A stretch of DNA of 64,000 nucleotides. Origin: Saururus chinensis. Taxonomy: Eukaryota > Streptophyta > Magnoliopsida > Piperales > Saururaceae. The stretch covers positions 4,087,001-4,151,000 of the forward strand of contig CP141148.1 in assembly GCA_035235625.1 (NCBI GenBank). Direction: 5' to 3'. The translations under genes and the position numbers were made by a program. The notes beneath the pieces were generated by a model, which saw only the letters and a program-made list of their open reading frames with translations, ran no database searches and was not told the DNA's origin. Below are positions 8,444 to 60,029 of this stretch, piece after piece; the stretch's first letter is position 1, and each line of letters begins with the position of its first letter.

Positions 8444-8974
8444 TTATCCCAACCTCATCATTGAGTGCTTAATCCCACCTAAGGTCACGAGCTTGTGACC
8501 ACTACCTTTTGGGCTAGGCCCGGATGCCTTAATTCCTCCAACAGTAGTCACAAGCTTGTGCCCACCACCACCTGGGCTTGGCCCAGAGTGCTTGACTCCA
8601 CCAAGAGTATCAGCATTCACGTGGGCATGGCCGCCGCCACCACCTGAGCTCGGGCCGGAGTTTTTGATCCCACCCAGAGCCCCGGCATCCACGTATGAGT
8701 TTCCGGGGCCTTTCGGGCACGGCCCAGAGTCCTTAATCCCTCCCAGGGTGCCAATGGGAGTAAACTTGTGGCCACCACCACCTGGGCTTGGGCCGGAGTT
8801 CTTCATACCATCCAAGACGAGGCCCCTGATCGCCCCCAGTGTTAATTCATCAGCAACAGCACTGGTTTCCTGCTCAGAAGGGGACAATGGACGGGAGTGA
8901 ACAGAAGAGAAACAACTGGAGAACAGGAAAAGAGAGACTTTTAGAACAAGAAGAGGCAGCGGCTTTGGAGCCAT
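8444..8974 (-). CDS. Gene A: secreted precursor with five SGPS peptide repeats (PIP-like, A-type)
   Basis: An intronless 176-residue secretory precursor. Residues 1-27 form a signal peptide with a hydrophobic core (LLVLKVSLFLFSS) and a probable cut after SVHS. A propeptide follows (about 28-55), then five blocks with SGPS at 60, 83 (as SGPC), 106, 130 and 151, spaced 21-24 residues apart. Four are preceded by GG(I/V)K plus one residue and the first by DGMKN. Cores such as SGPSPGGGGHK and SGPSPKGSGHK match the SGPSxxGxGH consensus of PIP/PIPL immune peptides, which in Arabidopsis act through the receptor kinase RLK7. The C-terminus (GGIKHSMMRLG) looks like a sixth, degenerate start. The only in-frame ATG that gives a signal peptide is at 8974, 111 bp downstream of a TATA box. 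The family call rests on the motif; the number of repeats is unusual. Processing into five peptides is inferred. Confidence 0.85.
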   Translation of the reverse strand: MAPKPLPLLVLKVSLFLFSSCFSSVHSRPLSPSEQETSAVADELTLGAIRGLVLDGMKNSGPSPGGGGHKFTPIGTLGGIKDSGPCPKGPGNSYVDAGALGGIKNSGPSSGGGGGHAHVNADTLGGVKHSGPSPGGGGHKLVTTVGGIKASGPSPKGSGHKLVTLGGIKHSMMRLG

Positions 8975-9084
8975 GAGTCCTATCCTCGGTAATACGTAGG
9001 CAACAGAACTAAGAAAATGTTATGGAGTATGAGCTTATGAACAAAATGTAGTGGAGTATGAGCCTCAAAGCCATGAAGTTGGTG

Positions 9085-9093
9085 TATTTATAG
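9085..9093 (-). promoter_or_regulatory. TATA box of gene A
   Basis: CTATAAATA on the minus strand lies 111 bp upstream of the gene A start codon, predicting a transcript start near 9055 and an 80-base leader. The same CTATAAATACACC block occurs upstream of gene C. Confidence 0.75.
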
Positions 9094-9130
9094 GTTGTTC
9101 TAAGTAAATGTTGGGCGAAGATTCACTTAG

Positions 9131-9170
9131 TTGACCCTTGGAAATTGGGTTAGGCAAGTCCAGAAATATG
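9131..9170. promoter_or_regulatory. W-box core and conserved upstream block of gene A
   Basis: TTGACC (9131-9136) is a W-box core, the WRKY binding site common in defence-gene promoters. Next to it, TTGGAAATTGGGTTAGGCA and a following AGAAATATG are shared with genes B (38517-38549) and C (56628-56660). In A and C the block lies about 45 bp upstream of the TATA box. Confidence 0.5.
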
Positions 9171-9849: not shown

Positions 9850-9967
9850 CAGTCACTCAATCCCACATTAATAGTTTCATTTAATTTTTTAAAATAAACA
9901 AATTTTATATTAATAATTTTATTTAATTTTTTAAAATAAAATAGCTATTAATATAGGGAGGAAATAG
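9850..9967. mobile_element. Stowaway-like MITE
   Basis: Ends are related inverted sequences carrying CATTAATAG and CTATTAATATAGGGAGG, flanked by TA. The interior repeats TTATTTAATTTTTTAAAATAA twice. It resembles the MITE at 39480-39587. Confidence 0.55.
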
Positions 9968-10599: not shown

Positions 10600-11622
10600 T
10601 CAAAAGGGCATTGGTTCATGCAGGGTGTAAATAAATGTATTCAAAGGTGACCACACTTTACCATTTCAATTGTATTTTACAGCCATAGGGTAATCAGCCA
10701 TAGTATTAGAAGCTGGTTGCTGCTTATAATAAATGAAGCATATCAATCATCTTGGCAAAAAAAAAAAGCATTTCATTGTTGGGTTGACATTGTATAAGAG
10801 AATCTAGGGGTATACATTCATATACTAAACCCTATAACCAAATTTAGTGAGAGGCATTCTAAAATCAGATTCATTGCTTACTTTACATGGAATTGTGATC
10901 TATACATGGTAAAGGTAACTTCCTTAGTCCTGATCTTCACCTGCAGGTACCAAGTTGAGTGTTACTGGATGGATTCAAGAGATCACTAACCAGTCTCAGG
11001 CCAAGTCTATATCATAGCAACAGTGATCAAGCTGAGTTTTACGGGATGAATTCAAGAGATCACTAACCATTATCAACAGTGATAAGCACTGTAACCATTC
11101 ACCAAGACCCATCAAAAATGGCTTTTAACATTCACTTTGAGCAAAAAGTTCTTCTAGTGCCTAACTCACTGATTAGTCCAATGTCATTCTCATTCTGATG
11201 GGCAATATTCCAGTGTCTTATTTGGAAAAGAAATGAATCTAAAATGAACAAACTTAAATTTCCTTCTTATCTTGGACTCCAACACAGTACAAATATCTAC
11301 ATGGGAAAAGTATGTACCAGCTGTCCACATCATCAAATCTTTTATAAAAAATTTAGCTGATTTCTACTCTGTTGGCTAGTTGATGTGGCACTGGCGTGGA
11401 ACCTTTAAACGCTCTACTTCAGCCTTTATCACACCCATGCGCCCCTCAATGTGACAAGTATTGGATTTGTCTCATGTAGAAAAACGGAGTTATCAACCAC
11501 TAAGCAAGCTTTCCTTGTTATCTGGAAGTACTTCAAGCTAGTGGAACAAGTTATGTAGCTGTGAGTAGGCCTCCATTTTAGTAGTCCACCCTCATGTCTT
11601 ACTCAAGGCTTCATCAACTTAA
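10600..11622. repeat. 3' flank of a B-type gene, cut off from gene B by transposons
   Basis: This segment matches the 3' flanks of relic E (41,940-42,850) and gene D (58,350-59,400). Shared blocks include CACCTGCAGGTACCAAGTT, TCCAATGTCATTCTC and ACTCAAGGCTTCATCAACTT. After CATCAACTTAA near 11,622 the match stops. It resumes at about 37,441 with TTCTATAAACAAGCAAATACC, directly before gene B. In relic E the two halves are contiguous (42,823-42,860). Confidence 0.8.
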
Positions 11623-11869
11623 CTTTTGGGGTTCTGATCCAATAGGTTAAAAAGTAGTGCTCAAACCACTTACAAAGTCAGACGGCTTAATTTTTAACAT
11701 TTTGACAAACCCTCTCATAAAAATGTATTAATTGACCTTTTTAATGCAAAATTTCAAAGTTTGAAACTTGGCCACCACCTCTTCGCTTCCCTATTGCGCC
11801 GCCCTTCCAAGGTTAGGGTGACTGCAACAAGGCCCGACTACCTTTGTCAACCACATTTATTTATTTTTG

Positions 11870-12065: not shown

Positions 12066-12069
12066 GGGT

Positions 12070-12841: not shown

Positions 12842-15300
12842 ATAAAAGAGAGAGTAAAGAGAGTGCATAGAGAGAGAGTGAGAGTGATGAGAGAGAGAAG
12901 AAGAAGAGAGAGAGGGAGGAGAGAGAGAGGGGGAGGGAGGAGGCAGAGAGGGGAGAAAAGAAAAAGGAGATAGAGAGAGAGGAGAGAGAGAGAGAGAGAG
13001 AGGAGAGAGAAGAGAGAAGGGAGGGAGGAGAGAGAGGTAAGAGAAGAGAGAGGAGATAGAGAGAGGAGAGAGAGGGGAAATTTTGTATTTTATTTATTTT
13101 ATATTTTTATTTAAAAATTAATTAAAAAATAAATAAGCATGTATTAGCGACATATTGGTTTATACGTCGCTAATATCACTAAATATTAGCGACGTATAGG
13201 CTTATTCGTCGCTAATACCCTTAGTATTAGCGACGTATAATCCTATGCATGGCTAATATATTTTTATTTATTTTTTAAAATAAATTTTAAACAAAAAATA
13301 TAGATATAGAGAGAGGAGAGAGGGAGATAGAAGAGAGAGAGAGGAGAGAGAGGGGTGAGAGAGTGGGTAGAGAGGGTGAGGAGAGAGAGGGAGGAGAGAG
13401 AAAAGAGAGAGAGGGGGGAGGGAGGAGGGAGAGAGGAGAGAAAGAGGGTGAGGAGAGAGTGAAGAGAGAGGAGAGAGAGGGGAGAGAGAGGGGAGGGAGG
13501 AGAGAGAGAGGGAAGAAGAGTTAGAGAGAGGGTAGAGAAAGAGGAGAGAGGAGAGAGAGGGGAATTTTTTTATTTTTTTTATTTTTTATTTAAAAATTAA
13601 TTAAGAAATGAATAAGCATGTATTAGCGACGTATAGGTACCACTGAGTATTAGCGACATATAGACTTAGATGTCGCTAATACCACTGAGTATTAGTGATG
13701 TATAGGCTTTATACATTGCTAATACCCTTAGTATTAGTGACGTATAATCCTATACTTCGCTAATACATTTTTATTTATTTTTTAAATAATTTTTAAACAA
13801 AAATATAGATATAGAGAGAGAGAGAGGAGAGAGGGTGAGGAGAGAGAGAAGAGAGACGAGAGACGAGAGAGAGAGGAGAGAGAGGGGAGAGAGAGAGAGA
13901 GAAGAGGGTGGAGAGAGGGAGGAGAGAGATAGGAGAGAGAGAGGAGAGAGAGAGGGGAGAGAGAGAGGGGAGAGAGAGAAGAGGGTGGAGAGAGAGAGGA
14001 GAGATAGAAGAGCGTGGGGAATTTTATTATTTTATTTGTTTTATATTTTTTATTTAAAAATTAATTAAAAAATGAATAAGCATGTATTAGCGGCATTATA
14101 GGTCTAAACGTCGCTAATACCACTAGGTATTAGCGATAGATAAACCTATACGTCGCTAATACATTTTTATTTATTTTTTAAAATAATTTTGAAATAAAAA
14201 TATAGATATAGAGAGGAGAGAGGGAGGAGAGAGAGAAGAGAGAGATAGAGAGAGGAGAAAGAGAAGGGAGAGAGGTGAGAGAAAGGGTAGGAGGGGTGAG
14301 AGAGAGGGTAGAGAGGGGGAGGAGAGAGAGAGAGAGAGAGAGAGGAGAGGGAGAGGGAGAGGAGAGGGAGAGTAAATTGTTTTAATTAATTTTTAAACAA
14401 AAAATATAAAATATAGAGGATTTACATAGATTGAGGAGAGAGAGAAGATGGTGGAGAGAGAGAGGGAAGAGAGAGAGGAGAAAAGAGGGTGGAGTGAGGG
14501 AGGAGAGAAAGAGAGGAGAGAGAGGGAGGAGAGAGAAGAGAAAGAGAGAAGAGAGAGAAGAGAGAGAGGAATGAGAGAGAAGAGAGGGAGAGAGAGGAAT
14601 GAGAGGGGGAGAGAGAAGAGGCTGGAGAGAGAGAGAGGAGAGAGAGGGGAGGGAGAGTTAGAGAGAGGGTAGAGAGAGAGGAGAGAGAGAAGAGCGTGGG
14701 GAAATTTTGTATTTTATTTGTTTTATATTTTTTATTTAAAAATTAATTAAAAAATAAATAAGCATGTATCAGCGAAGTATAGGTCTATACGTCGCTAATA
14801 CCACTGAGTATTAGTGATGTATAAACTTAGATGTCGCTAATACCACTGAGTATTAGCAACGTATAGGCTTTATACATCGCTAATACCCTTAGTATTAGCG
14901 ATGTATAATCCTACACTTTGCTAATACATTTTTATTTATTTTTTAAAATAATTTTTAAACAAAAAATATAGATATAGAGAGAGAAGAGAGGGAGGAGAAT
15001 GAGAGGAGAGAAAGAAGAGAGAGAGAGGAGAGAGGAGAGAGAGAGGGTAGAGAGGGGGAGAGAGAGCGGAGAGGAGAGAGAGAGAGAATGGGTGAGAGAG
15101 AGGAGAGAGAGATGAGATAGAGAGAGAGAGAGAGGAGAGGGAGAGGAGAGGAAGAGTAAAATTTTCAATTAATTTTTAAACAAAAAATATAAAATATAGA
15201 GGATATACATAGATTGAGGAGAGAGAGAGAAGATGGTGTAAAGAGAGAGGGAAGAGAGAGGAGCGAGAGGGAGAGAGGAGAGGAGAGGGCAGAGAGAGAA
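12842..15300. repeat. Alternating GA-rich and TTAGCGACG modules in the CACTA element
   Basis: Purine-only GA tracts of about 160-280 bp (starting near 12,842, 13,305, 13,812, 14,210, 14,416, 14,975 and 15,215) alternate with AT-rich spacers. The spacers share AAAATTAATTAA followed by AATAAGCATGTATTAGCG, then inverted TTAGCGACGTATA units. It is a decayed higher-order tandem array. The Arg/Glu-rich frames it contains are low-complexity artefacts. Confidence 0.8.
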
Positions 15301-16316: not shown

Positions 16317-16318
16317 CT

Positions 16319-17153: not shown

Positions 17154-17501
17154 TCAAATGTACGATGAGCTAATAAGACCCATACGATCCACATGACTCT
17201 TAAACAGAGAAGGGGGTAAGCCCTTAGTCATTGGATCAGCAACCATAATCTCAGTACCTATATGCTCAATAACAACCGTCCCTTCTTTAACACGATCCCG
17301 AACAACAAGATACTTGATGTCGATGTGTTTACTCTGACTTCTACTCTTGTTGTTCTTCGTGAAGAACACAACAACACTATTATCACAGAACATCTTTAAC
17401 GGCCTAGATATGGAATCCATAATATTAAATCCTATGACAAAGTTCATCAGCCAAGTAGAATGTGACGTGCCCTCATAACAAGCAACAAACTCTGCCTCCA
17501 T
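17154..17501 (-). pseudogene. Copia RNase H relic
   Basis: The 115-residue frame has MEAEFVACYEGTSHSTWL, the CDN segment (MFCDNSVVVFF) and KHIDIKYLVVRDRVKEG followed by ADPMTKGLP. These are the hallmark blocks of the copia RNase H C-terminus. The strand just upstream (17,502-17,654) still encodes GYTNADFACC and SGYIF, but a stop separates it. Confidence 0.9.
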
Positions 17502-17654
17502 ATATAATAACGCTGTAAGGGTTTGCTTAATACTTTTCTAAGAGATAGCACCGCCTGCCAAAAGGAAAATATAACCCGATGTCAACTTTTTTGAGTCAAC
17601 ACAACAAGCAAAGTCTGCATTTGTGTATCCAACCAGTTCCAAATGATCAGAATG

Positions 17655-18620
17655 TCAGTATGTAAGCATGTAATCCTTCATTCCATGCAGATACCTCATA
17701 ACCTTCTTTGCAGCTCTCCAATGATCCATCCCTGAATTTTTCTGGTATCTACCTAGCATTCCCATAGCAAAGGCAATATCAAGTTTTGTACAGACCTCCA
17801 AGTACATCATACTACCAACTGCTGATGCATAAGGAATTTCCTTCATGCTTTCCAACTCCAAAGAATTCTTTGGACATTGGAACAAGCCAAATTTGTCACC
17901 CTTCACAATAGGAGCTGCACTAGGTGAGCAGTTTTCCATGTTAAACCGTTTTAGAACTTTATTGATATAGGCCTGTTGAGAAAACCCAAGGATCCTTCTG
18001 GATCTATCACGATAGATCTCAATCCCTATGACACAGGATGCCTCTCCTAAATCTTTCATGTCAAAGTTCTGAGAAAGAAATTGCTTAGTCTCGTGCAACA
18101 TCCCTAAGTCATTGCTTGAAAGTAGAATGTCATCAACATACAAGACCAGAAAAGTGTAACTGCTCCCACTAACCTTAAGGTATATGCATTGATCAACAAT
18201 GTTCTCCTTAAAATTAAATGAAGTAATAACATTGTTGAACTTCAAATACCACTGTCGGGAGGCCTGTTTCAGTCCGTATATTGACTTCTTGAGTCTACAA
18301 ACCAGATGACTTCCTTTATCTGAGGTGAATCCTTTTGGCTGAATCATATACACCTCCTCCTCAAGATTCTCATTCAAGAATACCGTCTTGACATCCATTT
18401 GATGTAATTCTAAGTCAAAATGAGCTACAAGGGCCAAAGTAACTCTCATTGAATCCTTTGTAAAAACTGGATAGAAGGTTTCATTATAGTCAACACCATC
18501 TTTTTGAAGAAAACCTTTGGCTACAAGTCAGGCCTTATATTTGCTAATGTTACCAGATGGATCTAATTAGTCTTATAGACCCATTTGCAGCCAAGAGTCC
18601 TAGTGCCTTGCGGTAACTCT
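17655..18620 (-). pseudogene. Copia reverse transcriptase relic
   Basis: The open part (17,655-18,449) shows HQMDVKTVFLNENLEEEVYM, IYGLKQASRQWYLKF, the catalytic LYVDDILLSSND and SAVGSMMYLEVCTKLDIAFA in the order of copia reverse transcriptases. The N-terminal part up to about 18,620 is readable only across stops. Both Asp residues of YVDD are kept, but the polyprotein frame is broken on both sides. Confidence 0.92.
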
Positions 18621-18628
18621 ATGAAATC

Positions 18629-20053
18629 TCAGACTTTATTATCAACCATAGATTTCATCTCATCCTGCATGACATCATACCATTTACTAGAGTTATCTCT
18701 AGACATGGCCTGTGAATATGTAATAGGATCTTGAATGAGTCCAACATTCTCGTCAGACTCCTCGAGGTATACAACATAGTCAAAAGGGAGTGCATGTTTC
18801 CTTACTCTTGACGACCTTCGAAGTCTTATTTCATCAACAGGCAGAGGTGCTTGTGCAATAGGAGCTTCAGCAACTTGTTCCTGAGGGGATGGTGAAGGAA
18901 GGAGAGGCTGCTCTGGAATCACCATAGGTGATGCAGCATGTGTTCCTCCACCGGATGTGGGTATAACAACTGGAACCCATATTTTCTCAAACACAATGTG
19001 TTTAGGGGAAATACTCCCACTGAAGTTGCCTTGCTCAAGAAAACGGGCATTCCATGCTTTGACTACTGTAGGGGTGTGAGATGGACAATAAAACATATAA
19101 CCCTTAGACCTTTTTGCATAACCAATGAAAAATCCACTAACAGTCTTAGGGTCAAGCTTCTTCTCAAGTGGATTATACACCCTAACCTCAACAGGACAAC
19201 CCCAGATATGTACATGATCTAAACTAGGTTTCCATCCATTCCATAGTAAAAAGGGTGTTTTAGGAACGACTTTAGATGGAACTCGATTTAAAATGTACAC
19301 GGCTGTCTTTAAGGCTTCACTCTACATATTGAGAGAAAGAGAGGAGTTACTAATCATACTCCTCACCATATCCATCAATGTGAGGTTCCTCCTTTCAGCA
19401 ACATCATGTTGTTGTGGTGTGTCTACTACTGTGTATTGTGCAACAATACCATTTTTCTTTAGGAACTGCGCAAATGGTTCAGGTTTTTATCCACTCTCTA
19501 TGTACCTGCCATAGTATTTCTCTCGTCTGTCTGATTTAACAATTTTGATACTCAATCTATATTATTTCTCTACCTCTACCTTATTAGTCTTGAAAGCATC
19601 AAATGCTTTAGACTTTTAATTTAAGAGATAAAGATACATGTATTGGGTATGATCATCTATAAAGGTAATGAAATACCTTTGACCATTCAGACAGGGAGTA
19701 CTAAACGGTCCACAGATATCAGTATGTATGGTGCCGAATTTCTCATTATGCCTCTTAGCACCCTTAGAAGACTTGTTAGTTTGCTTTCCTTTTATGCAGT
19801 CTATACATGTCTCGAGATTAGTAAAGTCAAGAGTTTTTAAAACTCCTCTTACTAATCGTTTTAAGCAGTCAATGGAGATATGCCCCAACCACCTGTGCCA
19901 TAACATAGAGGAGTTCTTTTTAATAACACTTCCTTGCGCAAACATCATAGATTGTTCAAAGGAAACATGCAAAGAGAGACAATATAATCCATCAATTAAA
20001 GAACCAAAACTAATGGTGACTGAATCTTTAATAATCAGAAATAAGGAATTCAT
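18629..20053 (-). pseudogene. Copia integrase relic
   Basis: The N-terminal piece (19,616-20,053) has the GAG-pre-integrase WHRWLGHIS, a CIDCIKGKQ pair of cysteines, HTDICGPF and YFITFIDDHTQYMYLYLL, covering the first two catalytic Asp regions. The C-terminal piece (18,629-19,300) carries NRVPSKVVPKTPFLLWNGWK, HIWGCPVEVRVY and FFIGYAKRSKGYMFYCPSHT, the copia-specific region after the core. About 300 bp between them hold the rest of the core with stops, so the enzyme is dead. Confidence 0.9.
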
Positions 20054-20056
20054 AAA

Positions 20057-20476
20057 CTAAAAAATAAAGCCATGAGGCACTAGTCTTGATAGAGAAACTA
20101 AGCTTTTAAAAAAACTTAGAATATAGAAAGCTCTCTCTAAATCTAATGTGTATCCTGTATGGAGAACAAGTCTATATGCCCCCACACCTTTAACCTTCGA
20201 ACACATCTTATTTCCAACATAGATGTTGTGCTCCCCATCATTTAGTTTCCTTAAATTGAGAAACCCCTGCATGACAATAGAAACATGGATTGTAGAACCA
20301 GAGTCAATCCACCATGTGTTATTATAATGAGAATCAATATAATTAGATTCATAACACACTAAAGACATGAAATTACCTCCTTTCTTGGCAAGCCACTTCT
20401 GATACTTATGACAATCTTTCTTTACATGTCCTTTCTTCTTGTAGAAAAAAGCATTTGGTTTCTTTGGTGACACCAT
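20057..20476 (-). pseudogene. Copia protease and zinc-knuckle relic
   Basis: The frame starts within a zinc knuckle that has lost its first cysteines (FFYKKKGHVKKDCHKY). It then carries WWIDSGSTIHVS, the DSGS/T aspartic protease motif, and ends in LSFFKSLVSLSRLV. It lies between gag and integrase as expected. Confidence 0.88.
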
Positions 20477-20600
20477 TAGACTTCATTGGCACACCTTTAT
20501 CAGCTTCTTTCTTTGAAGCACCATGATTACCCATCTTTTGTCCTTTATGAGAAACTATATGGGCACTTTCTAGCTTCTCTTGCTTAAGTCTCCCCTCTTC

Positions 20601-21265
20601 CTAAACACACATACTCAGAAGGTCATTAACTGACCACTGAGTGTTATGTGTGTTATAAGAGATCTTAAATGACCCATATTGTGCAAGCAGGGAGTTCAGA
20701 ATAAAGTGGACCAAAAAAGTATCATCAATCTTTATTTTCATGTTGTTTAAGTGATTAGCAATAAATATCATGCATATGCATGATATGCTCTCCACCCTTT
20801 GTCATCTGTTAGCCTCATGGATGACAACTTGGACATTAAGGTGCTGGCAAAGGCTTTATTAGAACTCTTAAATTGAGCTTCAACAGCTTTCAAAAGTTCT
20901 TGGACTGTAGCATATTCTGGGATGGATTCACTAATGCTTTTATTTATATAAGACCTCATGAGCATCATGTTTAAGCGGTTAGACTGCTCCCACTTTTCAA
21001 AAGATGTTACCTCACTTGGCATACTTTTTTTCGTAGGAGTGGGGGGTACATCCATACGAAACGTTAAATCAAAGTCTATGCACCCTAATAGTAAAAGAAT
21101 CTTTTCTTTCTGATCCGTAAAATTGTTCCCAAACAATAATGGAAGGTGTTGATTAGGGTTAGAAATAAAAGACGGATAAGCTGCAATAAAAGAATAAATA
21201 CATGCAAACATTAAAGAGGGCAAGAAACAATAACATAAGTATGACATATCCAATGCTAAAATCAT
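20601..21265 (-). pseudogene. Copia gag relic
   Basis: Two overlapping frames. The upstream one (20,768-21,265) includes TSFEKWEQSNRLNMMLMRSY and a VQELLKAVEAQFKSSNKAFA block typical of copia gag. The second (20,601-20,795) continues with HLNNMKIKIDDTFLVHFILN. The change of frame near 20,780 marks an indel. The leader between gag and the 5' LTR (21,266-22,220) has no gene. Confidence 0.8.
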
Positions 21266-23953: not shown

Positions 23954-26900
23954 TGTCACGCCCCGGCGATGCCCGACCCGAGCCGAACCCGATCCAGGGC
24001 CAGTCAAACGCGCGGGGGCGACGAAGTGAAAATTGAGAAATGATCTAGCGGAAGACTTAATCCCTAATCCCGGGCGATTAACAGAAACACGGAGTGCGCA
24101 CAATCCTTTGAGCAAAAGTAAATAAAAGGGAAGGAAAAAGTGTTGCTCATCACAAAGTAAACAACAATCTCAAACCCACAAACTTAGTTAAGTAAAGCCC
24201 ACACCGGCTCAAAATAAGTCATAAGCATCACAACTGCAAAATATGACATAAATCCAAACAAGAACCCTACACAAAGGTTCGAACATAAAGCATGAAACAA
24301 ACGCAGGTAAGTCACGCAACGATCTCCATCATCACACCCAAGCTACCTCTGACCTTTCCTCAAAGAGGCAATCCTGTCCGTCTGCGTGTCGCACCACGCA
24401 GCCCCAAATCAAAACACAAAAGAGGGGTGAGTTTTAACAAACTCAGCAATGGTTTTTAATATCACTAACAACATCGAAAATACGATAGCATGACGATATA
24501 ATCCTTCAAATCAACGATGTACAAGGTGTATCATTTTCTGATCACATATTCACATCACTTAGAAACTGCATCATAATGCATAATTCAGCCTGCATGGATG
24601 TATCTCTAACATACATATTCCCACATGCATTATTTCACAATTCAACTTGCATGGATGTATCTCTAACATACATATTCCACATGCATTATATCAAATCAAC
24701 CTGCATGGATGTATCTCTAACATACATATTCCACATGCATAATATCAAATCAAACTGCATGGATGTATCTCAAACATACATATTCCTCATGTATTATATC
24801 AAATCAACCTGCATGGATGTATCTCTAACATACATATTCCCACGTGCATTACATCAAAATCAACATGCATGGATGCATCTCTAACATACATATTCCCACA
24901 TGCATAATGTTATCACAATCAACCTCCATCAAGGAGTAATCACACATTAACGTCACACACACGGGAGCATAGACAAGGCCACGAAGGCGTGTCATGGTCC
25001 AAAATTCTACACAAGAATTCAAGAAAGATCGGGGTTGTCAATCCCTAATACTGCTCGCCTTGGACGATCCTGGCCAAGGATGTCCCATTCTCACACAGAG
25101 AATCTAGAGCAGGGGTGTTCGCCTTGGGACATCTCCTGCGGAGGGAAGAGCCCGAGTTCTCACACAGAGAACCCTAGAACACGTGGTAACGGGGTGCACG
25201 CGGCATACCACACTGGATTCTCAGGGTCCAGATGACACACATAATAAATATTCTCACATATCCGCAAGACAAGTACACAACTCGTCCCCACATCCTTCCA
25301 TTTAACAAGACTCAACCCAGGGAGTGCACTCGTTCCACACAGGAACTTCAAATCGTTTCACACAGGAACTTCAAATCAAAATATGTCCTTTCGGACCAAT
25401 CAACTTGCGATTAATCCACCACCGATCAATCCGGCACACAATTCCATCACATTGCATCCAATCGGTCGAATTCGATTAACCACAATGAAGCCTCATTTGG
25501 AAATCCATTTTCATGATGCATGTAGCATGGTACATACGTGGACAAAGGATACATGAATCCTAATCTATGATAAGTGCTCTCATCAGCCCCTAATGCATCA
25601 TTCATAATCACAATATTAAGCTTCAACATCATCATTTAACCCACACATGTGTGTGTAACTAGTAGAAGCATTTCACATAATGCATATCAACATGCTTGAA
25701 AATCAACTCACTACCACACTACACATGTGAATTTCTATCTAAACATGAATTCCAGCGGAAATCATAGTAGAAGAATCGTTGAAATCATAGCTAAATTCAA
25801 AACTCAACCACAAAGGCTAAAACACCTATAACATCACTCATTTCATCATTGAGTCATGGCAATCACCAACATCCACACACCACTAACCACCATCTATCAT
25901 GACAAATCAGTCCAACAATGATTATAGTCCTACTGAAAATATGCTTAACCAAAGGGAAACAACCATTCATAATTTTAAGATAACGATTCCAACATCATGC
26001 CATAAAACATAAGTCATTCCACCATCTCTAAGCATATATCTCAACTCCATAAACTTAATAGCATGCATTTCTAGTAGCCTAATATAGCTTAAAACACTCC
26101 ACATTCATATAAAATTGGCAAGCTAAAGTGGAATCATCAAAATAGACATCATATGCACAACATGCAATTTTCTGTGTAGCCGATCGATCGCCCTTCAGGC
26201 CGTTTGATTGGCTACACGCAAAAATTTAAAATTTACAGTTCAGCCGATCGATCGCCCTACAGGGCCGATCGATTGCCAACATGGCAGAACAGTCATCTTC
26301 TTCCTTTCGCAAATCCAAACCGAAACACCATAGATAACACTTCAAATCCACATCTAACACCCTAATCATCATCAAAAGTCCTCCTTGACTTCCAGAATAT
26401 CAAACCAAACCATAATAATGCAAAACCCTAAGAAATCGGGATTAAATAATTCTATTTTCTAATCTTACCATTAACACACTAAATCAAGCAAGCCATTTCG
26501 AAATAAGCCAAAAATGGAGAGTTTTACCATGGACAAACAGAGATTTTGAAGACGCATTACCTCATCACTTAATTAAGCTCGGATTGAAGAGTCACCCTTC
26601 TTGAAATCCTTGAAAACACAATGAGTTTGAATTAAACTCTAATAGAAATCGATTTACCCAAGAAATCCCTAATTAAACCTTAGATCTAGGGCTTGTTGGT
26701 AGTAAAAATCGAATTTTTAATGTTAGGGTTTGTAATAAAACAAAAATTAGTAGCTTTTGATGGTCAAAAATGAATTGAATCAAGGGGAAAATGGTAGATT
26801 TGGAAGGAATAAAGAGAAAAGCCATGGATTAGTGCTTAATTAGAATAAGCTTACCTTAATCGGCTTCTAATTCGGGCCTAAGTGGGGATTAGGCCAACCC

Positions 26901-38217: not shown

Positions 38218-38226
38218 TATTTATAG
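38218..38226 (-). promoter_or_regulatory. TATA box of gene B
   Basis: CTATAAATA on the minus strand, 102 bp upstream of the ATG, in the context CACCACTATAAATACAACC. The same context is kept upstream of gene D and, mutated, at relic E. Confidence 0.75.
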
Positions 38227-38478
38227 TGGTGAGTTGATTCAAAAGTATTGACGAAAACAAAATCGGGAGAGGCACCATTCAAACCCATGTGAGCGCGTGG
38301 TTCCTCATGGGTTGCCATCTTCAACGTCTGTGAAGAGAGGAGGAAGCATCCAGGGGGATTCATCCACGTAGAAGATGGAAGCTGGGCACCTTGAAGTCCA
38401 AGTAACACAGAAGAGAAGAAAGGGATGCGGGGACTTTAATTGATTTTTCAGAGAGGAAAGCTTTTCTGTTTCTGGGTT

Positions 38479-38484: not shown

Positions 38485-38516
38485 AGCTCCTAGTGTTTTG
38501 GACACTACTGGTTGAT

Positions 38517-41939: not shown

Positions 41940-43084
41940 AATCCAATAAGAGACAATTCTTAAATTAGGTTCATTGCTTATTTTACATGAAACTCTGACC
42001 TATACATGGTAAATGGAACATCATCCTGAACATCACCTGCAGGTACCAAGTTTAGTTTAAAGTCATCTAAAAAAAAGTTTAGTTTAAAGTGGGCGGACGC
42101 ATAAAACTGCAACAATTCTTATACCATGTCAATATCATATGAAAAGTGGTAAAGCATGCGAACACTTCACAACAGACCCACAAAAAATGGCTTTAACGTT
42201 CACTTTGAGCAAAACTTTCTTCTACTGCGCGCCTACCTTCCCATCTGATCACTCCAATGTCATTGTCACTCTGATAAGCGATCCTTTGTCATAATAGGAA
42301 AAGAAATGAACATTCTTAGCAAGAAGGAAGTGAAAAATACGTACCCAGGCCAGATGGCACCTTAAAAAGGAAAACACCTTTCTATGTGAGTGTAAAATAT
42401 CACATGAAAAAGTGTGTTAGTGAAGAGGGTTAGAGAAAGGCCCTTACATTCAACGCGCTGTATTGTCCCCAACTTCAAATAATTTATATATCAAAATTTA
42501 AAATGGTACTCTCTACTAGTTGATGTGGAACTAGCGTGGCAACTTTAACTGCCCACCTTCATCCTTATCACAAGCATGTCCCTCTCAATTACTGATTTTG
42601 TTTCATGTAGAAAAGCGAAGCCATCAACCACTGAACGGTCTTCCTTGTTATCTGAAACTACTTCAAGCTGGTGGAACACGTTATTTGGTTGTGGAAGTGA
42701 AGGGAAATGTGACGGTAGGCCTTCAATTTAGTATATCTTCTACAGAAAGTCTACCCTCTTCTTCTTCTTCTTCTCTCTCTTTTTTTTTCTAAGTCCACGC
42801 CCTTCTCCACTCAAGACTTCGACAACTTAAATTCTATAAAGGACCAAATACCAAAGTCATCTTACTTTTTTTTCCATATCCCAGATATACAAGTGTCTCT
42901 TCACATCTCATAGAATGAATTTCGATATCCTGCACGAAAAAATCTACTTATTTTTGCTTATGCAAGGGATACTGGATACGTACATGTATGGCTACAGACA
43001 GTAGAAAATGAATCATGGAATTCCTGTGACAAAGATGTTAGCATTTGTCACATGAATCGTATACAAAAAATAATGATGATCGGT
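41940..43084. repeat. 3' flank of relic E, homologous to those of genes B and D
   Basis: Shared blocks include ACCTGCAGGTACCAAGTT, CTGATCACTCCAATGTCATT, ACTCAAGACTTC and GTGACAAAGATGTTAGCATT. Here the flank is uninterrupted across the point where the 25.8-kb block sits next to gene B. Confidence 0.75.
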
Positions 43085-43265
43085 CATCACAGGCGCACAT
43101 CATCCACCTTCCCATGGCCAGCTCATAGTCACCTGAAGTGCTCTGCCTTAGATTGGAGATGGCTGGTTCTGAAAGAATAGGAAATGCTGCAAATGAGCCT
43201 GACCTACTACTGAAAATGGATTAGTTTATTCAAAAAATGGATTATTTTATCTATAGTGGTGAGGG
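43085..43265 (-). pseudogene. Relic E: B-type SGPS precursor with the coding region deleted
   Basis: The end of the coding region (minus strand GGCCATGGGAAGGTGGATGATG, equivalent to the C-terminal GHxKVDDV) is fused directly to the conserved start region GGTGACTATG. The ATG survives, but the next bases belong to the last repeat, so it reads MSWPWEGG and stops. About 390-400 bp, including the signal peptide and essentially all four repeats, are missing. The TATA context CACCACTATAGATAA near 43,250 is mutated from CACTATAAATA. The 3' and 5' flanks on both sides match gene D. Confidence 0.85.
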
Positions 43266-43480
43266 GATTTTTCTGTTTTTGGGGCAAGGAGAGGATTCAA
43301 AGGTATTGATGAAACAGTTGCCAGTTGAGGCCAAGCGGCATTCAATGCCATGAGGGACAAGTTCAACATCTGTGAGGAGAATAGGAAGTATCCAGGGGGA
43401 TTCATCGACGTGGAAGATGGAACCTGGGTGCCGTGGAGTCCAAGTACAAAAGAGAAGGGAGGGGTCGTGGGGAATCTAGT
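43266..43480. repeat. Upstream segment of relic E
   Basis: It matches the sequence upstream of genes B and D, including GGATTCAAAGGTATTGA and GGAAGTATCCAGGGGGATTCAT. Similarity fades after about 43,480. Confidence 0.7.
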
Positions 43481-44819
43481 TGATTAGTAATTAGAAGGAC
43501 TTGTCTAACTTAGACTAGTTTTTATGACCACAGCTAAGTGACCCACAATGGGAACGGAAGACTGCCATATCGAAAGAGAAACTTGGGACCAACAATTTGA
43601 TCATACAATGCGGTGGTCATGCAATGTGATCAAGAAAATATTTATTTCTCTGCTTGGAAAGGAAAAGTAATTCGAGGTTTTGATAGGTTCATAGTGTTTG
43701 GACTCTACTGGTTGTTTGGGCTTATTTTTCTGGTCGCGGTAGTTTAAACAACTTTTCTTATTTGGCTCCTCACATTAATTAAGAAATCAGGTTTTGGTAC
43801 ACGAGGAATAGAAAACAAGCCAAAGTGTGATCCATGTTACTAACATATAAAATTTTTAGTCAATATTTGACATTTGACGATTTAAATAGTGATAGACGAC
43901 TTAAAATTTGGCATCTAATAAATTAAATTCCAACTCACAAATGTCAAATTTATTATTTATTATCTTTCTTCTTATACCTATTTAAATAACAAATAAAAGT
44001 ACAACGACAATACATTGTACCATAAAAAATTTACATGCTATTACTATCTACCGTTAAAATGCCAAATGCCACTGGACCAAATTTGCTTGGGGTTGAGAAT
44101 GTATTTCTCTTTCGCGAATTCACATGTGACTGAATGAAATCCATGAGTTAATCACAGACACTACAAAGTCATCATTTTTATCCTCTCTTAATTCATTATT
44201 GAGTGAAAGCTTTTTATCATGTTCATCTTCAACAATTATATTATATTATGCTTTATAATACGTACATTCATGATATATCGAAGAGTTCGATGATCCCATA
44301 AACGTGTAAGCTCATATATGATTGCATACCGCACTTGCAATCCTTCAAGCACTAGCTCAACATGCATCCTCGCAGACTCTTGCGCCACAATAAATTTGCG
44401 GCCTTTGGCCCTTGTGGACATAGTATTTTTTTTCACAAATGTAAATGCTACCCTCACATGAGCACACAGGGATATGTGCCATCAACAAGATGATATATCA
44501 TCATATACTATGGTTATTAATTGACTAATTAGGTGGAGGACTTTGGCCTTTGGAGAGGTAAGTAAATAAAGAAAAATGTTATACCCATGAGCTATTTTTC
44601 ACGAGATACCCACGTAATTTATTCAAACTACGTGGGCCCAACTAACAAATGGTCATCTATGAACCAGTGGGTGAATCCCGTGGCTGTTTTAACATAGCGA
44701 TAGCACATAAATCTAAAAAAAATATGCATGCTCAAATATCATAAAAGGAAACAATAAGAATCAACAAAGGCTCATGGTGGTCTCCACAAACATCTATACC
44801 TTTCTATGCAAGAAGATCA
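43481..44819. other. Intergenic, nothing recognised
   Basis: AT-rich DNA without a supported gene. A 73-residue frame at 44,236-44,457 on the minus strand matches nothing I recognise. Confidence 0.4.
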
Positions 44820-48824: not shown

Positions 48825-51800
48825 TGTCACACCCCGGCGATGCCCGAGCCGAGCCGAACCCGGTCCAAGGGCCGGTGAAGCGCGCGGGGGCGACAAAGGA
48901 AGATTGAGAAACGATCTAGCGGAAGACTTAACCCTAATTAACCACGGGCGATTAACAAAAATACGGAGTACGCACAATCCTTTGAGCAAGAGTAAATAAA
49001 AAGGGAAGGAAGAGTGTTGTTTATCACAAAGTAAACAACTAATCTCAAACCCACATGCTTAGTTAACTAAAGCCCACACTGGCTCAAATAAGTCTTAAGC
49101 AAACATAACAGTGAAATGTGACATAAATCCAAAACAAAGAACCCTACACAAAGGTTCTAAACATAAGCATAAAACTAAAGAAGATAAGTCACACAACGAT
49201 CTCCATGATCACATCCAAGCCATCTCTGACCTTTCATCAAAGAGGAGATCCTGTCTGTCTGCGTGTCGCACCACACAGCCCCAAATCAAAACACAAGAAA
49301 GAGGGGTGAGTTTAACAAACTCAGCAATGGTTTTTATTATATCACTAGCAACATCAAAAATACCATAGCATAGCAATATAGTCATTCAGATCAAAGATTT
49401 ACATGGTGCATCATTTTCTGATCACACATATACATCTCCTAACACTGCATCATAGTGCATAATCAACCTGCATGGATGTATCTCTAACATACATATTCCC
49501 ACATGCATCACATCAAAATCAACCTGAATGGATGTATCTCTATCATACATATTCCATCATGCATTATATCATCACAACCTCCATCAAGGAGTACACATTA
49601 ATGTCATACAGATGGGAGCATAGACAAGGCCACGAAGGTGTGTCATGATCCAAAATTCTACACAAGAATTAAAGAAAGATCGGGGTTGTCAATCCCTAAT
49701 GCTGCTCGCCCTGGACGATCCTGACCAAGGATGTCCCATTTTCACACAGAGAATATAGAGCAGGGGTGTTCGCCCAGGGACATCTCCTGCGGAGGGAAGA
49801 GCCCGAGTCCTCACACAGAGAACCCTCGAACACGTGGTAGCGGGGTGCACACGGCATACCACACTGGATTCTCAGGGTCTAGATGACACTTATAATAATA
49901 TTCTCAGAATCCGCAAGATAAGTACACAACGCGTCCCCACATAATCCCATTTAATTAGACTCAACCCAGGGAATGCACTCATTCCACACAGGAACTCAAA
50001 TCAAAATATGTCCTTTCGGACCAATCAACTTACGATTAATCTACGACCAATCAATCTAGCATACAATTTCACCACATTGCATCCAATCAGTCAAATTTGA
50101 TAAACCTCGATGAAGCCTCAATTTGAAATTCATTCTCATGATGCATGCAGCATGGTACATACATGGGCAAGGCATACATGAATCCTAATCCATGATAAGT
50201 GCTCTCATCAGCTCCTAATGCATCATTCATAATCACAATATTAAGCTTCAACATCATCATTTAACCCCCACATGTGTGTAACTAGTAGAAGCACTTCACT
50301 CAATGCATTTCAACATGCTTGAAATTAACTTACTACTACACTACACATATGAATTTCCATCTAAACATGAATTCCAGCGAAAATCAAAGAAGAAGAATCG
50401 TTGAAATCGTATCCCAATTCAAATCTCAACCACAAAGGCTAAACACATATAAAATCATTCATTTCATCCTTGAGTCATGGCATTCACCAACATTCACACC
50501 TCAACTAACCACATTCTATCATGACAAATCAGTCCAATAATAAGTTGTAGTCCTACTGAAAATATGCTTAACCAAAGGGAATCAACCATTCATAATTTTT
50601 AAGATGACAATTCCAACATCATGTCACAAAACATAAGTTATCCCACAAATTCCTAAGCATATATCTCAATTTTATAACCTCAATAGCATGCTTTTTCAGT
50701 AACATAACAAAACTTAAAATACACCACATTCATATGAAATTGGCAAGCTAAAGTGGAATCATCAAAATAAACATCATGCATTAGAACACCAATCTGTTGT
50801 GTAGCCGTTCGAACGCCCTTCAGGCCGTTCGATAGGTTAAACGTAAAAATTTGTAATTCACAGTTTGGCCGTTCGAATGCCCAGTAGGCCGTTCAATCGG
50901 CTGAACTGAAAAACTGTCATTCTGACAGTGTTGCCGTTCAAACGCCCAGAAGGGCCGTTCAAATGCCAACAAGGCAGAACTGGTCATCTTCTTCCTTTCG
51001 CAAATCCAAACCGAAACACCATTGATAACACTTCAAATCCACATCTAACTCCCTAATCATCATCAAAAGTCCTTCATGACTTCTAGAATATCAAACCATA
51101 TCATAATAATGCAAAACCCTAAGAAATCGGGATTAAATAATTTCATTTTCTAATCTTACCATTAACACTCCAAATTAAGTAATCTTCATTTGAAATAAGC
51201 CAAAAATCAAGAATTTTACCATGGATAAACTGAGATTTCGAAGACCCATTACCTCAACACTTGATTAAGCTCGGATTGGAGGGTCACCCTTCTTGAAATC
51301 CTTGAAAACACAATAAGTTTGAATTAAACTCCAATAGAAATCGATTTACCCAAGAAATCCCTAATTAAATCTTAAATCTAGGGCTTATTGATAGTAAAAA
51401 TCGAATTTTGAATGTTAGGGTTTATAGTAAAACACAAATCAGTAGCTTTTGAGGTCTAAAAATGAATTAAAACATGGGGAAATTAGCAGATTTGGAAGAG
51501 ATTAAGGAGAAGGCTAGGGCTTAGTGCTTAATTAGAGTAGGCTTACCTTAATCGGCTTCTAATCCGGGCCTAAGTGGGGTTTAGGCCAGACCTCCTTCCT
51601 TAGCCTATTCCCAAAAATGGAAATGACTCAGGTTTACCCTTTTATAGTAAGGGTTGGGGTATGCATGGGTAAGTTATGAGGTGTAAATAGGAAAAGTATG
51701 CTAAAAATGGGTATTTTACAAATTTAAGCACTAATTAAGCCTAATAAAATTCTAAAAATTTTTGTATGACCTTAAGTAGATGTCTAGGTTCATTCGACCC

Positions 51801-54114: not shown

Positions 54115-54124
54115 ATGGCGTACA

Positions 54125-55974: not shown

Positions 55975-56507
55975 TTATTGTCGTCCCAGCCTCATCTTTG
56001 ACTGCTTAATCTCACCTAAAGTCATGAGCTTGGGACCGCCACCTTTTGGGCTAGGCCCGGACGCCTTAATTCCACCAACAGCAGTCACAAGCTTGTGCCA
56101 ACCACCACCTGGGCTTGGCCCAGAGTTCTTGGCCCACCGAGCATATCAGCATTCACGTCGGCATGGCCGTCACCACCTGAGCTCTGACCGGAGTTCTTAA
56201 TCCCACCCAGAGTTGCGGCGTCCACGTACGAGTGGCCGGGGCCTTTCGGGCTCGGCCCGGAGTCCTTAATCCCTCCCAGAGTGCTTATGTCAGTGAACTT
56301 GTGGCCACCACCACCTGGACTTGGGCCGGAGTTCTTCATCCCATCCAAGACGAGGCCCCTGATCACCCCCAATGTTAATTCATCAGCTACAGCAACGGTT
56401 TCCTGCTCAGAAGGGGGAAATGGCCGGGAGTAAACAGAAGTGAAAGAACTAGAGAACAGGAAAAGAGAGACTTGCAGAACAAGAAGAGACACCATGTTTG
56501 GAGCCAT
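55975..56507 (-). pseudogene. Gene C: A-type SGPS precursor with a one-base deletion
   Basis: Copy of gene A. The ATG at 56,507 starts MAPNMVSLLVLQVSLFLFSS, a signal peptide ending near VYS. Three repeats follow: SGPSPGGGGH, SGPSPKGPGH and a degenerate SGQSSGGDGH. After NADMLGG the frame shifts and ends at 56,085, giving 140 residues. Against gene A, one base is missing near 56,130 (GTTCTTGGCCC versus GTGCTTGACTCC). In the old frame two more SGPSP repeats and the ending MRLG can be read, to a stop at 55,975. The interval is 533 bp, one short of a multiple of three and one codon longer than gene A when counted. An upstream in-frame ATG (56,555) falls before the expected transcript start. It could still be expressed as a three-repeat precursor, so pseudogene status is likely but not certain. 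Confidence 0.8.
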
Positions 56508-56574
56508 GAGTTCTATCCTCAGTACTGCGTAGGCAATAGTACTATGGCAATGCAATTGACACCCTAAGCTGGTG

Positions 56575-56583
56575 TATTTATAG
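56575..56583 (-). promoter_or_regulatory. TATA box of gene C
   Basis: CTATAAATA on the minus strand in the context CTATAAATACACCAGC, almost identical to gene A, 68 bp upstream of the ATG. The promoter core is intact although the coding frame is broken. Confidence 0.7.
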
Positions 56584-56627
56584 ATTGTTCGTTGTAAATG
56601 GTGGGCGGAGATTCATGTAGCTGACCG

Positions 56628-58170
56628 TTGGAAATTGGGTTAGGCACGTTCAGAAATATGGGCGCAGCGCCCTCGTCACCCTTTCCGCCACTTTCTTGCA
56701 TTAGCGGAAAAGGAAGATTGGGAGGAAGCATCTCATCAAGATAGAGCATGGAACTGAGCGCAAGAAGGGTCAAGAGTTCTCTATGACTTGTGGTGGGGAG
56801 CCATCTTAGAAGTATCTCTTCCATAGTCTGATTTGCTTTATTGGTTTGGAAAGGAGGGTTGATGGTTGGAAGGAATAAGGGAGATCTTCTGGTCAACTTT
56901 CGGTCCTTCCTGTTCAGGTGGGTCCAACGGTGAATGGCCTGAAAATCCTGACTAGGTGGCCACCGGCGGCCGTGGATTGCACTTGGAAATTGGTCGTTGT
57001 GTATGGCTTCGAGTGGTGTATATTAATGTGGGGAAAATGACAGACACCCAATGAATGAATAGGCCATCCTAATTCCTAAGCGTAGAGGACAAGCAAAACC
57101 CAACGAGATAGCGAAAGGGCATTGAGGATTTACGAGGCAATTAATTAGCCAACTCACCCCGCTTATACATACTCACAATAATAGACGATGGATCTTCAGC
57201 AACCGTGTTAAAGAGTTAGGTTCGCTAAAAGAGAATGGTTCTACCACGTGACTCTTTATATGTTTATTTATTATTTGACACCTTAACTAAACTCAATACC
57301 TGAAATAATTACTCATGTTTAGACACCATAAAATTGTTAAAATATGTTAAATAGTAAATAAACAGAAAATTATATGAATAATATTAAAAATAAAATATTT
57401 ACTAAACTATTAGAAAGATAAAAGATTATTAAAATAGTATTTATTTTTGCAACATAAGTGTTGCGCTTACATGACTTATTTTTAAAAAAATTAATAATTT
57501 TATCCTTTAAAAGGACAAAATCACTATTGAATGGCAAATGATGAAATCACTTTTTATAATAATTTTATCCTTTAAAGGATAAATCACTATTTAATCATAA
57601 GTTTATCCTTGATCACTATTAAATAGTAATTTGTTCTTTGATTTTGTTTTTGTAAAGGATAAAATTATGATAAAATCACTAAAAAATATTAAAATAAAGC
57701 CATGCAGGTGCCTATGTGGTAAAAGTAATACTATTTTGATAAATATTTTCATCTTCATACTATTTCAGTAAATATTTTATTTTTTAATATTATTTATATG
57801 ATTTTTTCTAAATAAACCTATGCACCGACATGACCTTTGAAACAATTCTATTTGATAATTCTCTGGTGGAGTAATGACTTAGAGTGGAGTAACTAAAATA
57901 GCTGGTGATAAACTCCTCATCGATAGCCTACTATTCATGTGGGCTTTTGAAGATTGTGCTGGACTTTATGAAACAGGAAACGATAGTTTAGTTGTGTAAA
58001 ACTGCCCAACCTAATTAACCACATATAAAATTAAGCTATTCTTATGGTTGCCGGGGCTGACCATGGGGATGATTGTAGCATTAATTAGGAACTGATCATG
58101 AAGATGGTGTTGCAAAATTAAATGTTTGGAGTGCATTGTTACTTATTCGAATTTATATCATCTCACTTGC
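56628..58170. repeat. Duplicated upstream segment of gene C
   Basis: It begins with TTGGAAATTGGGTTAGGCA and continues through blocks shared with genes A, B and D to GGTGTTGCAAAATTAAATGT near 58,110. It is interrupted by the inverted-repeat MITE at 57,330-57,830. The W-box core of gene A is CTGACC here (56,621). No coding region is supported. Confidence 0.65.
57330..57830. mobile_element. MITE with long inverted-repeat arms
   Basis: The left arm (about 57,345-57,450) contains ATATGAATAATATTAAAAAT and AAATATTTACTAAA. The right arm (57,722-57,830) is its inverse (TTTCAGTAAATATTTTATTT, AATATTATTTATATGA). Arms are about 95 bp around an AT-rich core holding TTTATCCTTTAAAGGATAAA. Genes A and B lack it, so it entered after the duplication. 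Confidence 0.6.
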
Positions 58171-59597
58171 ATTAATCAATTTGATTGGATAATGGCAGTA
58201 AGCCTTTGAACTTGTTAATCTGGCTGCACTAGGTTACATGTCCGCCCATGGTATCTAACTATATATTCTGTATCCGTTGAATCCCCAAAATTTAAAAAAT
58301 GGGGGCGTCAAATATCAACATGAGCAATTGATAATAACTATTTATTAGCATTAAAAGGTGGTCATACTTTCCATGAACAAATTATATTAATTAGGTGCTT
58401 TATTGAAAGCAAACATAAATATTCAGCCATACAAGAAATGGGGGTAGGATTAAAAGCTGTTGCTGCTTATAAAGAATGAATCATATCATTGTTGGGTTCA
58501 GCATTGCTGCTTTTTATTGTGACTCTATGTCTAAAAAAATATTTTTTTGTTTTTGTCTTGTAACTAAACCCTATAACTAAAGGATAGTGATATACACCCA
58601 AAGAATCTATCCAATAAACCTTCTTAACTAGGTTTTGCCTAGGACATATGTGTAGGGTTCAAACAAGGCTGGTTTATATGTTCTATCCAACCAAAACCTA
58701 CTTAGAGAGGGTTTAGACAGGGTTTGGTTGATAGATTCCTTAGGTGATTATCATTTTCTATAGTGATATCTAGATATAATTCTAAATTAGATCGATTGGA
58801 TACCTTACATGAAACCGTGACCTATAAAAGGACGAACTTCATCATTACCATCTCCCACAAAGAAGAGTTTTTTTATGCTGCCAGCTTAGCGTAAGGTACC
58901 TATAGGAGCTGTTGATATTTCATATTACTGTCGTACACGCTACATGCTAGTGAACATTAGCATAAGAAAAATTTACGTTAATATGAGTAAATGAATGGCT
59001 GCCTTGCATAAGGTACGAAGTAAGTTTTAGTAGATAGGCTCGTGACTCGTGAGATTATACCCAATCTCATGCCATGTCAATATCATACCAACAGTAGTTG
59101 AGCATGTGAAACATTTCACCAAGACCCATACAAAATGGCATTAATATTCACATTCGATAAGAGTTTCTTCCACGGCCAAACTCTCCATCTGATCACTCCA
59201 ATGTCATTCTCCTTCTGATTGGCAATCCACTGACTTATTCGGAAAAAGAAATGAGTCTAAAACGAACCAGCTTACATTAATTTCCTTATCAAGCTAGTGG
59301 AACAAGTTATGCATCTTCTCCAGAAAGTCCACCCTCATGCCTCTATTTAAGACTTCAACACCTCAAATTCCATAAGAAATAAATACCAAGTCTTCTTTAT
59401 TTTTTTTGTAATTATGCCAGATATGCATGCGTCACTAGACATAGTACAGAATGAATCATTGAATTCATGTGACAAAGATGTTAGCATTTGTCACGAGAAA
59501 TGTGAAAAAAGAAAAGAACAATGAATACAAGTAAAAAATGAATCATATCCCACAAAAACATGTGGAGTACAAGAAGGAAAAGAATAATAATCGGCCG
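58171..59597. repeat. C-D intergenic DNA and 3' flank of gene D
   Basis: From about 58,300 this matches the A-B intergenic DNA (10,430-11,622 plus 37,441-37,690) and the flank of relic E. A relative of the CACGCTAGC repeat sits at 58,918-59,050. No gene was recognised. Confidence 0.6.
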
Positions 59598-60029
59598 TCA
59601 CAGGTGCACATCATCCACCTTCGCATGGCCAGCTCCTGGGCTGGATCCGGAGTCCTTGATCCCCTTAATGCTGTCTACATTTGCGTACTTAGGACCCCCG
59701 CCGTGTGTGAAAGAGTTCCCAGCGCCAGGACTAGGACCAGAGTCTTTCATTCCGCCAAGTGGGTACTTTGCAGGGAATCCAGTCTCCTCTCCATCACTGT
59801 GTGCGTTCCCTTGTCCGGGGCTGGGCCCAGAGTCCTTCAACCCACCAAGAAAATAGCCGTTGATATGTGCATGGTTGTCTCCTGGACTTGGCCCGGAGTC
59901 CTTTACCGCGCCCAAAGAGAGGCCATCGACGATCTCTCTGAGAAACGGGGTGAATGGTCTGGCGTGGGCAGGGCTCAAAACAGAGCTGAACAAGATGGGG
60001 AGGAGAAGAAGATGAAGAAAAAGCTTCAT
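59598..60029 (-). CDS. Gene D: secreted precursor with four SGPS repeats (B-type)
   Basis: An intronless 143-residue precursor and close copy of gene B. The signal peptide is MKLFLHLLLLPILFSSVLSP with a cut after AHA. RPFTPFLREIVDGL follows, then cores at 45 (SGPSPGDNH), 67 (SGPSPGQGN), 97 (SGPSPGAGN) and 127 (SGSSPGAGH). The fourth has Ser in place of the first Pro, the best conserved position of PIP-type peptides, so this copy may no longer signal. The first three keep SGPSPG but two end in GN instead of GH. The ATG at 60,029 aligns with the start of gene B; a GTG two codons upstream is not a start. TATA box 108 bp upstream. The gene lies 3.1 kb from gene C in the same order as the original B-A pair. 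Confidence 0.85.
   Translation of the reverse strand: MKLFLHLLLLPILFSSVLSPAHARPFTPFLREIVDGLSLGAVKDSGPSPGDNHAHINGYFLGGLKDSGPSPGQGNAHSDGEETGFPAKYPLGGMKDSGPSPGAGNSFTHGGGPKYANVDSIKGIKDSGSSPGAGHAKVDDVHL

Follow-up and report, generated by a model that had tools for sequence, protein, structure and literature searches.

Background

Among described plant peptide precursors, those of the PIP, PIPL and CEP families come closest to an array of SGPS-repeat genes that we analysed in Saururus chinensis, in a window of 64,000 nucleotides (contig C9, CP141148.1 of assembly GCA_035235625.1, positions 4087001-4151000) and its surroundings; positions below are counted from the first letter of the window unless prefixed by a contig. 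Arabidopsis PIPs and PIPLs carry one or two motifs (PMC4526919), as the initial annotation of this DNA had stated, and tandem PIP genes occur in Arabidopsis; the TIPTOP precursor of N. benthamiana has two units (PMC5427549). On the CEP side, AtCEP9 has five CEP motifs in one precursor (PMC4526919). Pea PsCEP22 combines two CEP-II with two PIP-like units, Medicago MtPIP8 likewise mixes the two types, and the authors suggest a common origin of CEPs and PIPs (PMC9739355). Group II CEPs are PIP-like, have a GxGH end and signal mainly via CEPR2, with RLK7 in a minor role (PMC12494267).

The reading that we favour, at a probability of about 0.68, is that the S. chinensis loci form a duplicated gene cluster for secreted modified-peptide precursors related to PIP/PIPL, nearest to the PIP2-like members, in which the units have multiplied to three to five. 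With the PIP2-like PIPs (Arabidopsis PIP2 and PIP3, potato StPIP1, TIPTOP) the array shares a signal-peptide-like N terminus and units made of SGPS and, in part of the units, GxGH, and with StPIP1 also an LGGIK-type lead ahead of the motif. It differs from them in having three to five units per precursor, against one or two in the Arabidopsis PIP/PIPLs and in this group (two in PIP2, PIP3 and TIPTOP), in its tails after the last GH, and in two unit spacings that are sorted by gene. The occurrence of CEP-like and PIP-like units within one family recalls pea PsCEP20, PsCEP22 and PsCEP23 and Medicago MtPIP8, but there both unit types stand in the same protein, whereas each gene of the array keeps one spacing and two of them, A and G, have five PIP-like units. 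AtCEP9 and the multi-domain CEPs resemble the array in having five motifs per precursor; these are CEP motifs, however, and SGPS is not reported in them. Group II CEPs (CEP13-15) have the GxGH end seen in the complete units of the array and a Pro9/Pro11 pattern said to be PIP-like, but are perceived mainly through CEPR2, and no SGPS is reported in CEPs.

The initial annotation had taken precursors with four or five repeats to be a multi-peptide form of this hormone system. Among the literature matches listed (open-access text, without figures or supplements, hence no proof of absence), PIP-type precursors had at most two SGPS motifs. Multi-motif or mixed CEP/PIP precursors are already published, those encountered being from pea and Medicago and AtCEP9. 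Judged from the sequences, what would be new here are PIP-like precursors that depart from the Arabidopsis definition in motif number and in the extreme C-terminal position of the motif.

Gene content of the array

The SGPS-repeat array consists of eight loci, A to H, all inside about 98 kb of contig C9:

8444-8974, minus strand: gene A, open, 176 amino acids; signal-peptide-like N terminus, Arg28, five SGPS-type units
37691-38116, minus strand: gene B, open, 141 amino acids; four SGPS units, shorter spacing
About 42514-43485, minus strand: locus H, deleted B/D-type remnant (blastn pieces and three-frame reading)
About 55975-56507 (low end approximate), minus strand: locus C, A/G-type, frameshifted
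59598-60029, minus strand: gene D, open, 143 amino acids; four units, shorter spacing
C9:4169430-4169765, beyond the window: gene E, B/D class, three units
C9:4183805-4184203, beyond the window: gene F, B/D class, four units, truncated
C9:4193227-4193757, opposite strand, beyond the window: gene G, A class, five units

A six-frame scan of the window located SGPS repeats at four loci, each on the minus strand, and protein searches of the whole assembly (516 Mb, 11 contigs) with D and with A added E, F and G. The initial annotation had described five loci on one strand over 52 kb, three intact, one frameshifted and one deleted. These are indeed present, all on the minus strand, with A, B and D open, C frameshifted after unit 3 and H as the deleted locus; the array nevertheless continues beyond the window with E, F and G, the last on the other strand.

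Outside the array, the two protein searches of the 516 Mb gave no convincing match among their first-look candidates (13 and 10), a scope in which a single-motif PIP gene could be missed. Two weak matches on contig C10 (E 0.24 and 0.08) were rejected, one lying in a long frame that reads, unscanned, like a PPR protein and the second in a frame that has no SGPS repeats. Genome-wide, the pattern SGPSPGxGH occurred at five places against none in a reversed control, and four of the five lie inside the array; the place on C3 was rejected, its codons reading CGPCPGLGH with no frame longer than 60 residues containing SGP. The short pattern SGPSP (599 places against 454 in the reversed control, the listed places being on contigs 1-2 alone) was not used.

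Two classes of repeat precursors

The array proteins fall into two classes. In the A/C/G class, complete units have the form SGPS-xx-GxGH, the spacing of AtPIP1 and AtPIP2, save for one A unit with an extra residue. The motifs of A begin at residues 60, 83, 106, 130 and 151; four of its five units are complete for SGPS and GxGH, the one with the extra residue included, as are all five in G, and A and G have a common signal-peptide type. The first frame of C (56085-56507) is open for 140 amino acids and holds units 1-3, two of them complete; a different frame holds units 4 and 5.

The complete units of B, E and F read SGPSPGxGH, one residue shorter than the A/G type, as in TIPTOP; SPGxGH is found in B, D (last unit), E and F and is absent from A and G. 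Motifs stand at residues 44, 66, 95 and 125 in B, the start of which was set at MKLS by alignment with D, E and F rather than at the upstream ATG at 38278, and at residues 45, 67, 97 and 127 in D. One unit of E has been lost in frame; F has PEPSPGVGQ as its last unit, and its frame ends early relative to B, D and E. Locus H keeps the B/D-type promoter, the leader to about the start codon, the end of the last unit and the 3' flank (blastn pieces), and a three-frame reading gave no open frame for a protein.

Exact SGPS occurs one to five times per protein in seven proteins (C by its first frame), and 16 chosen units yield the consensus xLGGIKDSGPSPxGxGH. Counted as SGP[SCT], the motif is present five times in A and G, four times in B, three times in D and E and once in F. 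When the mature parts of these six proteins (C was left out) were shuffled, the observed count was reached in 0 of 5000 shuffles for A, B, D, E and G and in 158 of 5000 for F. Of the four or five evenly spaced SGPSP repeats per protein in the initial annotation, the number holds for A and B when counted this way, one motif of A being SGPC, whereas D has three and a last one reading SGSS; the spacing is even in A and G, at 21-24 residues, but is 22, 29-30 and 30 residues in B, D and F. Its signal peptides correspond to a signal-peptide-like, hydrophobic N terminus in all six proteins examined, the most hydrophobic 12-residue stretch beginning at residue 3-6. An acidic propeptide, on the other hand, is not a general feature: past residue 23, A has 8 acidic and 14 basic residues, and D has 13 and 10. 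An AlphaFold model of A contains one helix (5-25) at a mean predicted local distance difference test score (pLDDT) of 49, with 126 of 176 residues below 50; the input, a six-sequence alignment with A first, is too shallow to exclude a fold, and the low confidence past the first helix is as expected of a model of a propeptide.

Relatedness to PIP and CEP peptides

Near-matches to active PIP peptides support the favoured reading. Unit 4 of A, VKHSGPSPGGGGH, agrees at 11 of 13 residues with the AtPIP2 peptide, printed as VKHSGPSPSGPGH (PMC10704477), and none of 2000 shuffles of the mature part scored as high against AtPIP2 for A, G or B. The potato StPIP1 peptide, TLGGIKAGPSPGEGHKVVNSHHQ (PMC10667265), is matched well by each of the six proteins, none of 2000 shuffles doing as well for A, B, D, E or F and 1 of 2000 for G. 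SGPSPQGPGH of G matches SGPSPRGPGH of potato StPIP1_1 at 0 of 2000 shuffles, and AtPIP1 and StPIP1_1 fit A and G with 0-2 of 2000 shuffles doing as well.

The N-terminal part agrees with this relationship. All six proteins examined have Arg-Pro directly past the hydrophobic N terminus, at residue 23-28, preceded by SVHS, PAHA, PVHA or CVHA, and C reads SRP too; Vie et al. 2015 (PMC4526919) pointed out an Arg right after the signal peptide in the IDA and PIP families. The kinship with PIP/PIPL proposed in the initial annotation is supported by the hydrophobic N terminus, the Arg, SGPS, GxGH and near-matches to AtPIP1, AtPIP2, StPIP1 and StPIP1_1, which stand well above the shuffled controls in A and G and are more uneven in the B/D class (0-206 of 2000 shuffles, varying with peptide and protein). 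Canonical (group I) CEPs are defined by a C-terminal CEP domain close to the original one and lacking SGPS; the array units carry SGPS and do not fit this group. A Pfam search with A, B, C (first frame) and D returned no family at E up to 10 save DUF1180, the presence of a PIP or CEP model in Pfam not having been checked; the sub-threshold DUF1180 match, to D (E 0.4), was taken as chance. A PDB sequence search with A gave no match at E up to 10.

Evidence on whether the loci are genes

A TATAAA lies at -75 to -121 in all seven loci with a start (a raw count, without a chance rate). In the window these are:

9087-9092, minus strand: TATAAA of A, 118 bases before the start; another at -369
38220-38225, minus strand: TATAAA of B, 109 bases before the start
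56577-56582, minus strand: TATAAA of C, 75 bases before the start
60139-60144, minus strand: TATAAA of D, 115 bases before the start

Across nine pairs, the ratio of nonsynonymous to synonymous substitutions (dN/dS, Nei-Gojobori) was 0.23-0.52 at dS 0.29-0.45, with bootstrap upper bounds of 0.39-0.93. Within A and G, unit cores are conserved at 63 of 70 columns against 51 of 75 for the linkers, a contrast reached by 3 of 144 shifted masks. Scanning the window for Rfam families and tRNAs gave no hit.

Duplication history

Within a class, units that occupy the same position in separate genes have an average identity of 0.79 (17 pairs), compared with 0.55 for units at different positions (56 pairs), in a comparison of A, G, B, D and F with gaps placed by hand and C and E left out. 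Since same-position units are the most alike, the multiplication of units probably preceded the duplication of genes within each class, and the copies would not have been homogenised. Between the two classes, the same comparison gave no clean match of unit positions. Blocks shared upstream of the genes, which could be a common promoter or dispersed repeats, may tie the classes together, among them:

60744-61019, minus strand: block upstream of D, matching the region upstream of C (79%, blastn)

Pieces at 10979-11625 (minus strand), about 2-2.7 kb upstream of A, match the 3' flanks of D and E (70-86%, blastn). They may be what is left of a lost B/D-type gene, or else a dispersed repeat. As D sits about 3 kb upstream of C, the resemblance of the two arrangements suggests that a pair of one B/D-type and one A/C-type gene was perhaps duplicated as a unit.

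Weighing of the evidence and alternative readings

Several observations weigh against the reading of the array as a cluster of multi-unit PIP-like precursors. The kinship with AtPIP2 is weaker in D (score reached by 25 of 2000 shuffles), F (3) and E (1), and the scores of B, D, E and F were reached by 14-206 of 2000 shuffles for StPIP1_1 and 1-46 of 2000 for AtPIP1, the peptide matches as a whole being 24 uncorrected comparisons. The proteins A, B, D, E and G continue beyond their last GH, so that the motif is not at the extreme C terminus, unlike in Arabidopsis PIP/PIPLs; the potato StPIP1 peptide likewise continues past GH (KVVNSHHQ; PMC10667265), and an extreme C-terminal motif may therefore not be general to PIPs. 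For C, which is frameshifted, dN/dS over the first 128 codons is 0.40 and 0.48, against 0.39 for A-G; a low ratio hence does not certify that each copy works. In B, D, E and F the cores are conserved at 22 of 52 columns and the linkers at 21 of 60, a contrast that is not significant (reached by 25 of 111 shifts) and is weak partly because the in-frame unit loss of E scores as change. W-boxes number 10 where 5.2 would be expected (P 0.042), an enrichment too slight to serve as an argument. Finally, D has no complete SGPS and GxGH unit among its four, and two of the eight loci, C and H, are broken and F is truncated.

The first alternative, which overlaps the favoured reading and is not exclusive of it, restricts the likeness to PIPs to A, C and G and takes B, D, E and F as group II CEP-like precursors acting through CEPR2. 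The SGPSPGxGH spacing of B, E and F would fit: according to the wheat authors, PIPs have two residues between SGPS and GxGH and CEPs a middle proline (PMC9532867), and CEP-II and PIP-like units are mixed in PsCEP20, PsCEP22 and PsCEP23 of pea (PMC9739355). Spacing alone, however, does not place B and D among the CEPs, since the AtPIP2-like StPIP1 (GPSPGEGH; PMC10667265) and TIPTOP (sGPSPGxGH; PMC5427549), named PIP and PIP-like, have the same shorter spacing, and Arabidopsis CEPs are reported without SGPS (PMC4526919). We regard this alternative as unlikely, though still to be reckoned with.

Somewhat less plausible is that one unit per precursor is the hormone and the rest are spacers, decoys or decaying copies, each gene yielding one peptide like ordinary PIPs. 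Complete SGPS and GxGH units are indeed few in B (two of four), E (one of three) and F (one of four), and absent from D. Yet the off-consensus ends recur between copies, B, D, E and F sharing GDNH in unit 1 and B, D and F a GxGN end in unit 3, which does not resemble random decay, and complete units are kept in A (four) and G (five).

A dying gene cluster in transposon-rich DNA, with no present function, would account for the frameshift of C, the deletion of H, the truncation of F and the copia-, gypsy- and MULE-type pieces nearby; we consider it very unlikely, as A, B, D, E and G are open and the four within-class pairs among them have dN/dS of 0.23-0.39 at dS 0.34-0.45. Secreted Gly/Pro-rich structural proteins of the cell-wall type, resembling PIP units by chance, would share the repetitive Gly/Pro/Ser-rich composition, hydrophobic N terminus and predicted disorder, but the shortness of the proteins, their few units, their near-identity to active PIP peptides and A/G linkers less conserved than the cores make this reading highly improbable.

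Proposed mechanism and implications

Under the favoured reading of a PIP-related cluster, the precursors would be secreted and then cut at the linkers, the prolines of SGPSP would be hydroxylated, and several non-identical peptides would be released from each precursor. Leucine-rich repeat receptor kinases would perceive these peptides, with RLK7 as the candidate for the A/G type and either RLK7 or CEPR2 for the B/D type; the signalling would probably concern stress or immunity. The four or five peptides per precursor of the initial annotation are a prediction, and too strong a one for the B/D class, in which most units are without a full GxGH; RLK7, its proposed receptor, is a candidate but not the sole one, given that group II CEPs, PIP-like and ending in GxGH, act mainly via CEPR2. 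The difference in unit spacing may matter for receptor choice.

A bolder proposal, which we offer tentatively and hold to be doubtful, is that one duplicated locus separates two ligand types, PIP-spaced in the five-unit A and G and CEP-II/TIPTOP-spaced in the three- or four-unit B, D and E, selection keeping the units distinct, and so would deliver non-identical peptides to RLK7 and CEPR2 at set ratios. If that were true, PIP and CEP signalling would be naturally bridged by such a cluster. Should the precursors be cut into several peptides, the result would be a PIP-type system in which one transcript gives up to five ligands and one cluster two ligand spacings. The cluster would then offer natural variants for asking what makes a ligand of RLK7 or of CEPR2, named as a future task in the literature (PMC12494267), and bear on the common origin of CEPs and PIPs suggested for pea.

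Surrounding DNA

In and around the window we found retrotransposon domains that we take to be of copia and gypsy type, MULE/FAR1 sequences, a weak plant-mobile-domain match and a PPR gene. Between A and B, pieces of a broken, presumably copia-type element (RVT_2, GAG-pre-integrase, Pol beta-barrel) occupy 17154-21265 on the minus strand. Tandem arrays of a 54-56 base unit with ATGGATGTATCTCTAACATACATATTCC or its complement lie at 24585-24905, 30183-30476 and 49430-49571, and a frame in L037 reads like these arrays. A long array of a nearly palindromic 22-base unit (approximately TTGGAGCAATATTGCTCCAAC) covers 62714-63571, and at 12847-15156 long GA-rich low-complexity stretches alternate with a 41-42 base unit holding TATTAGCGACGTATA.

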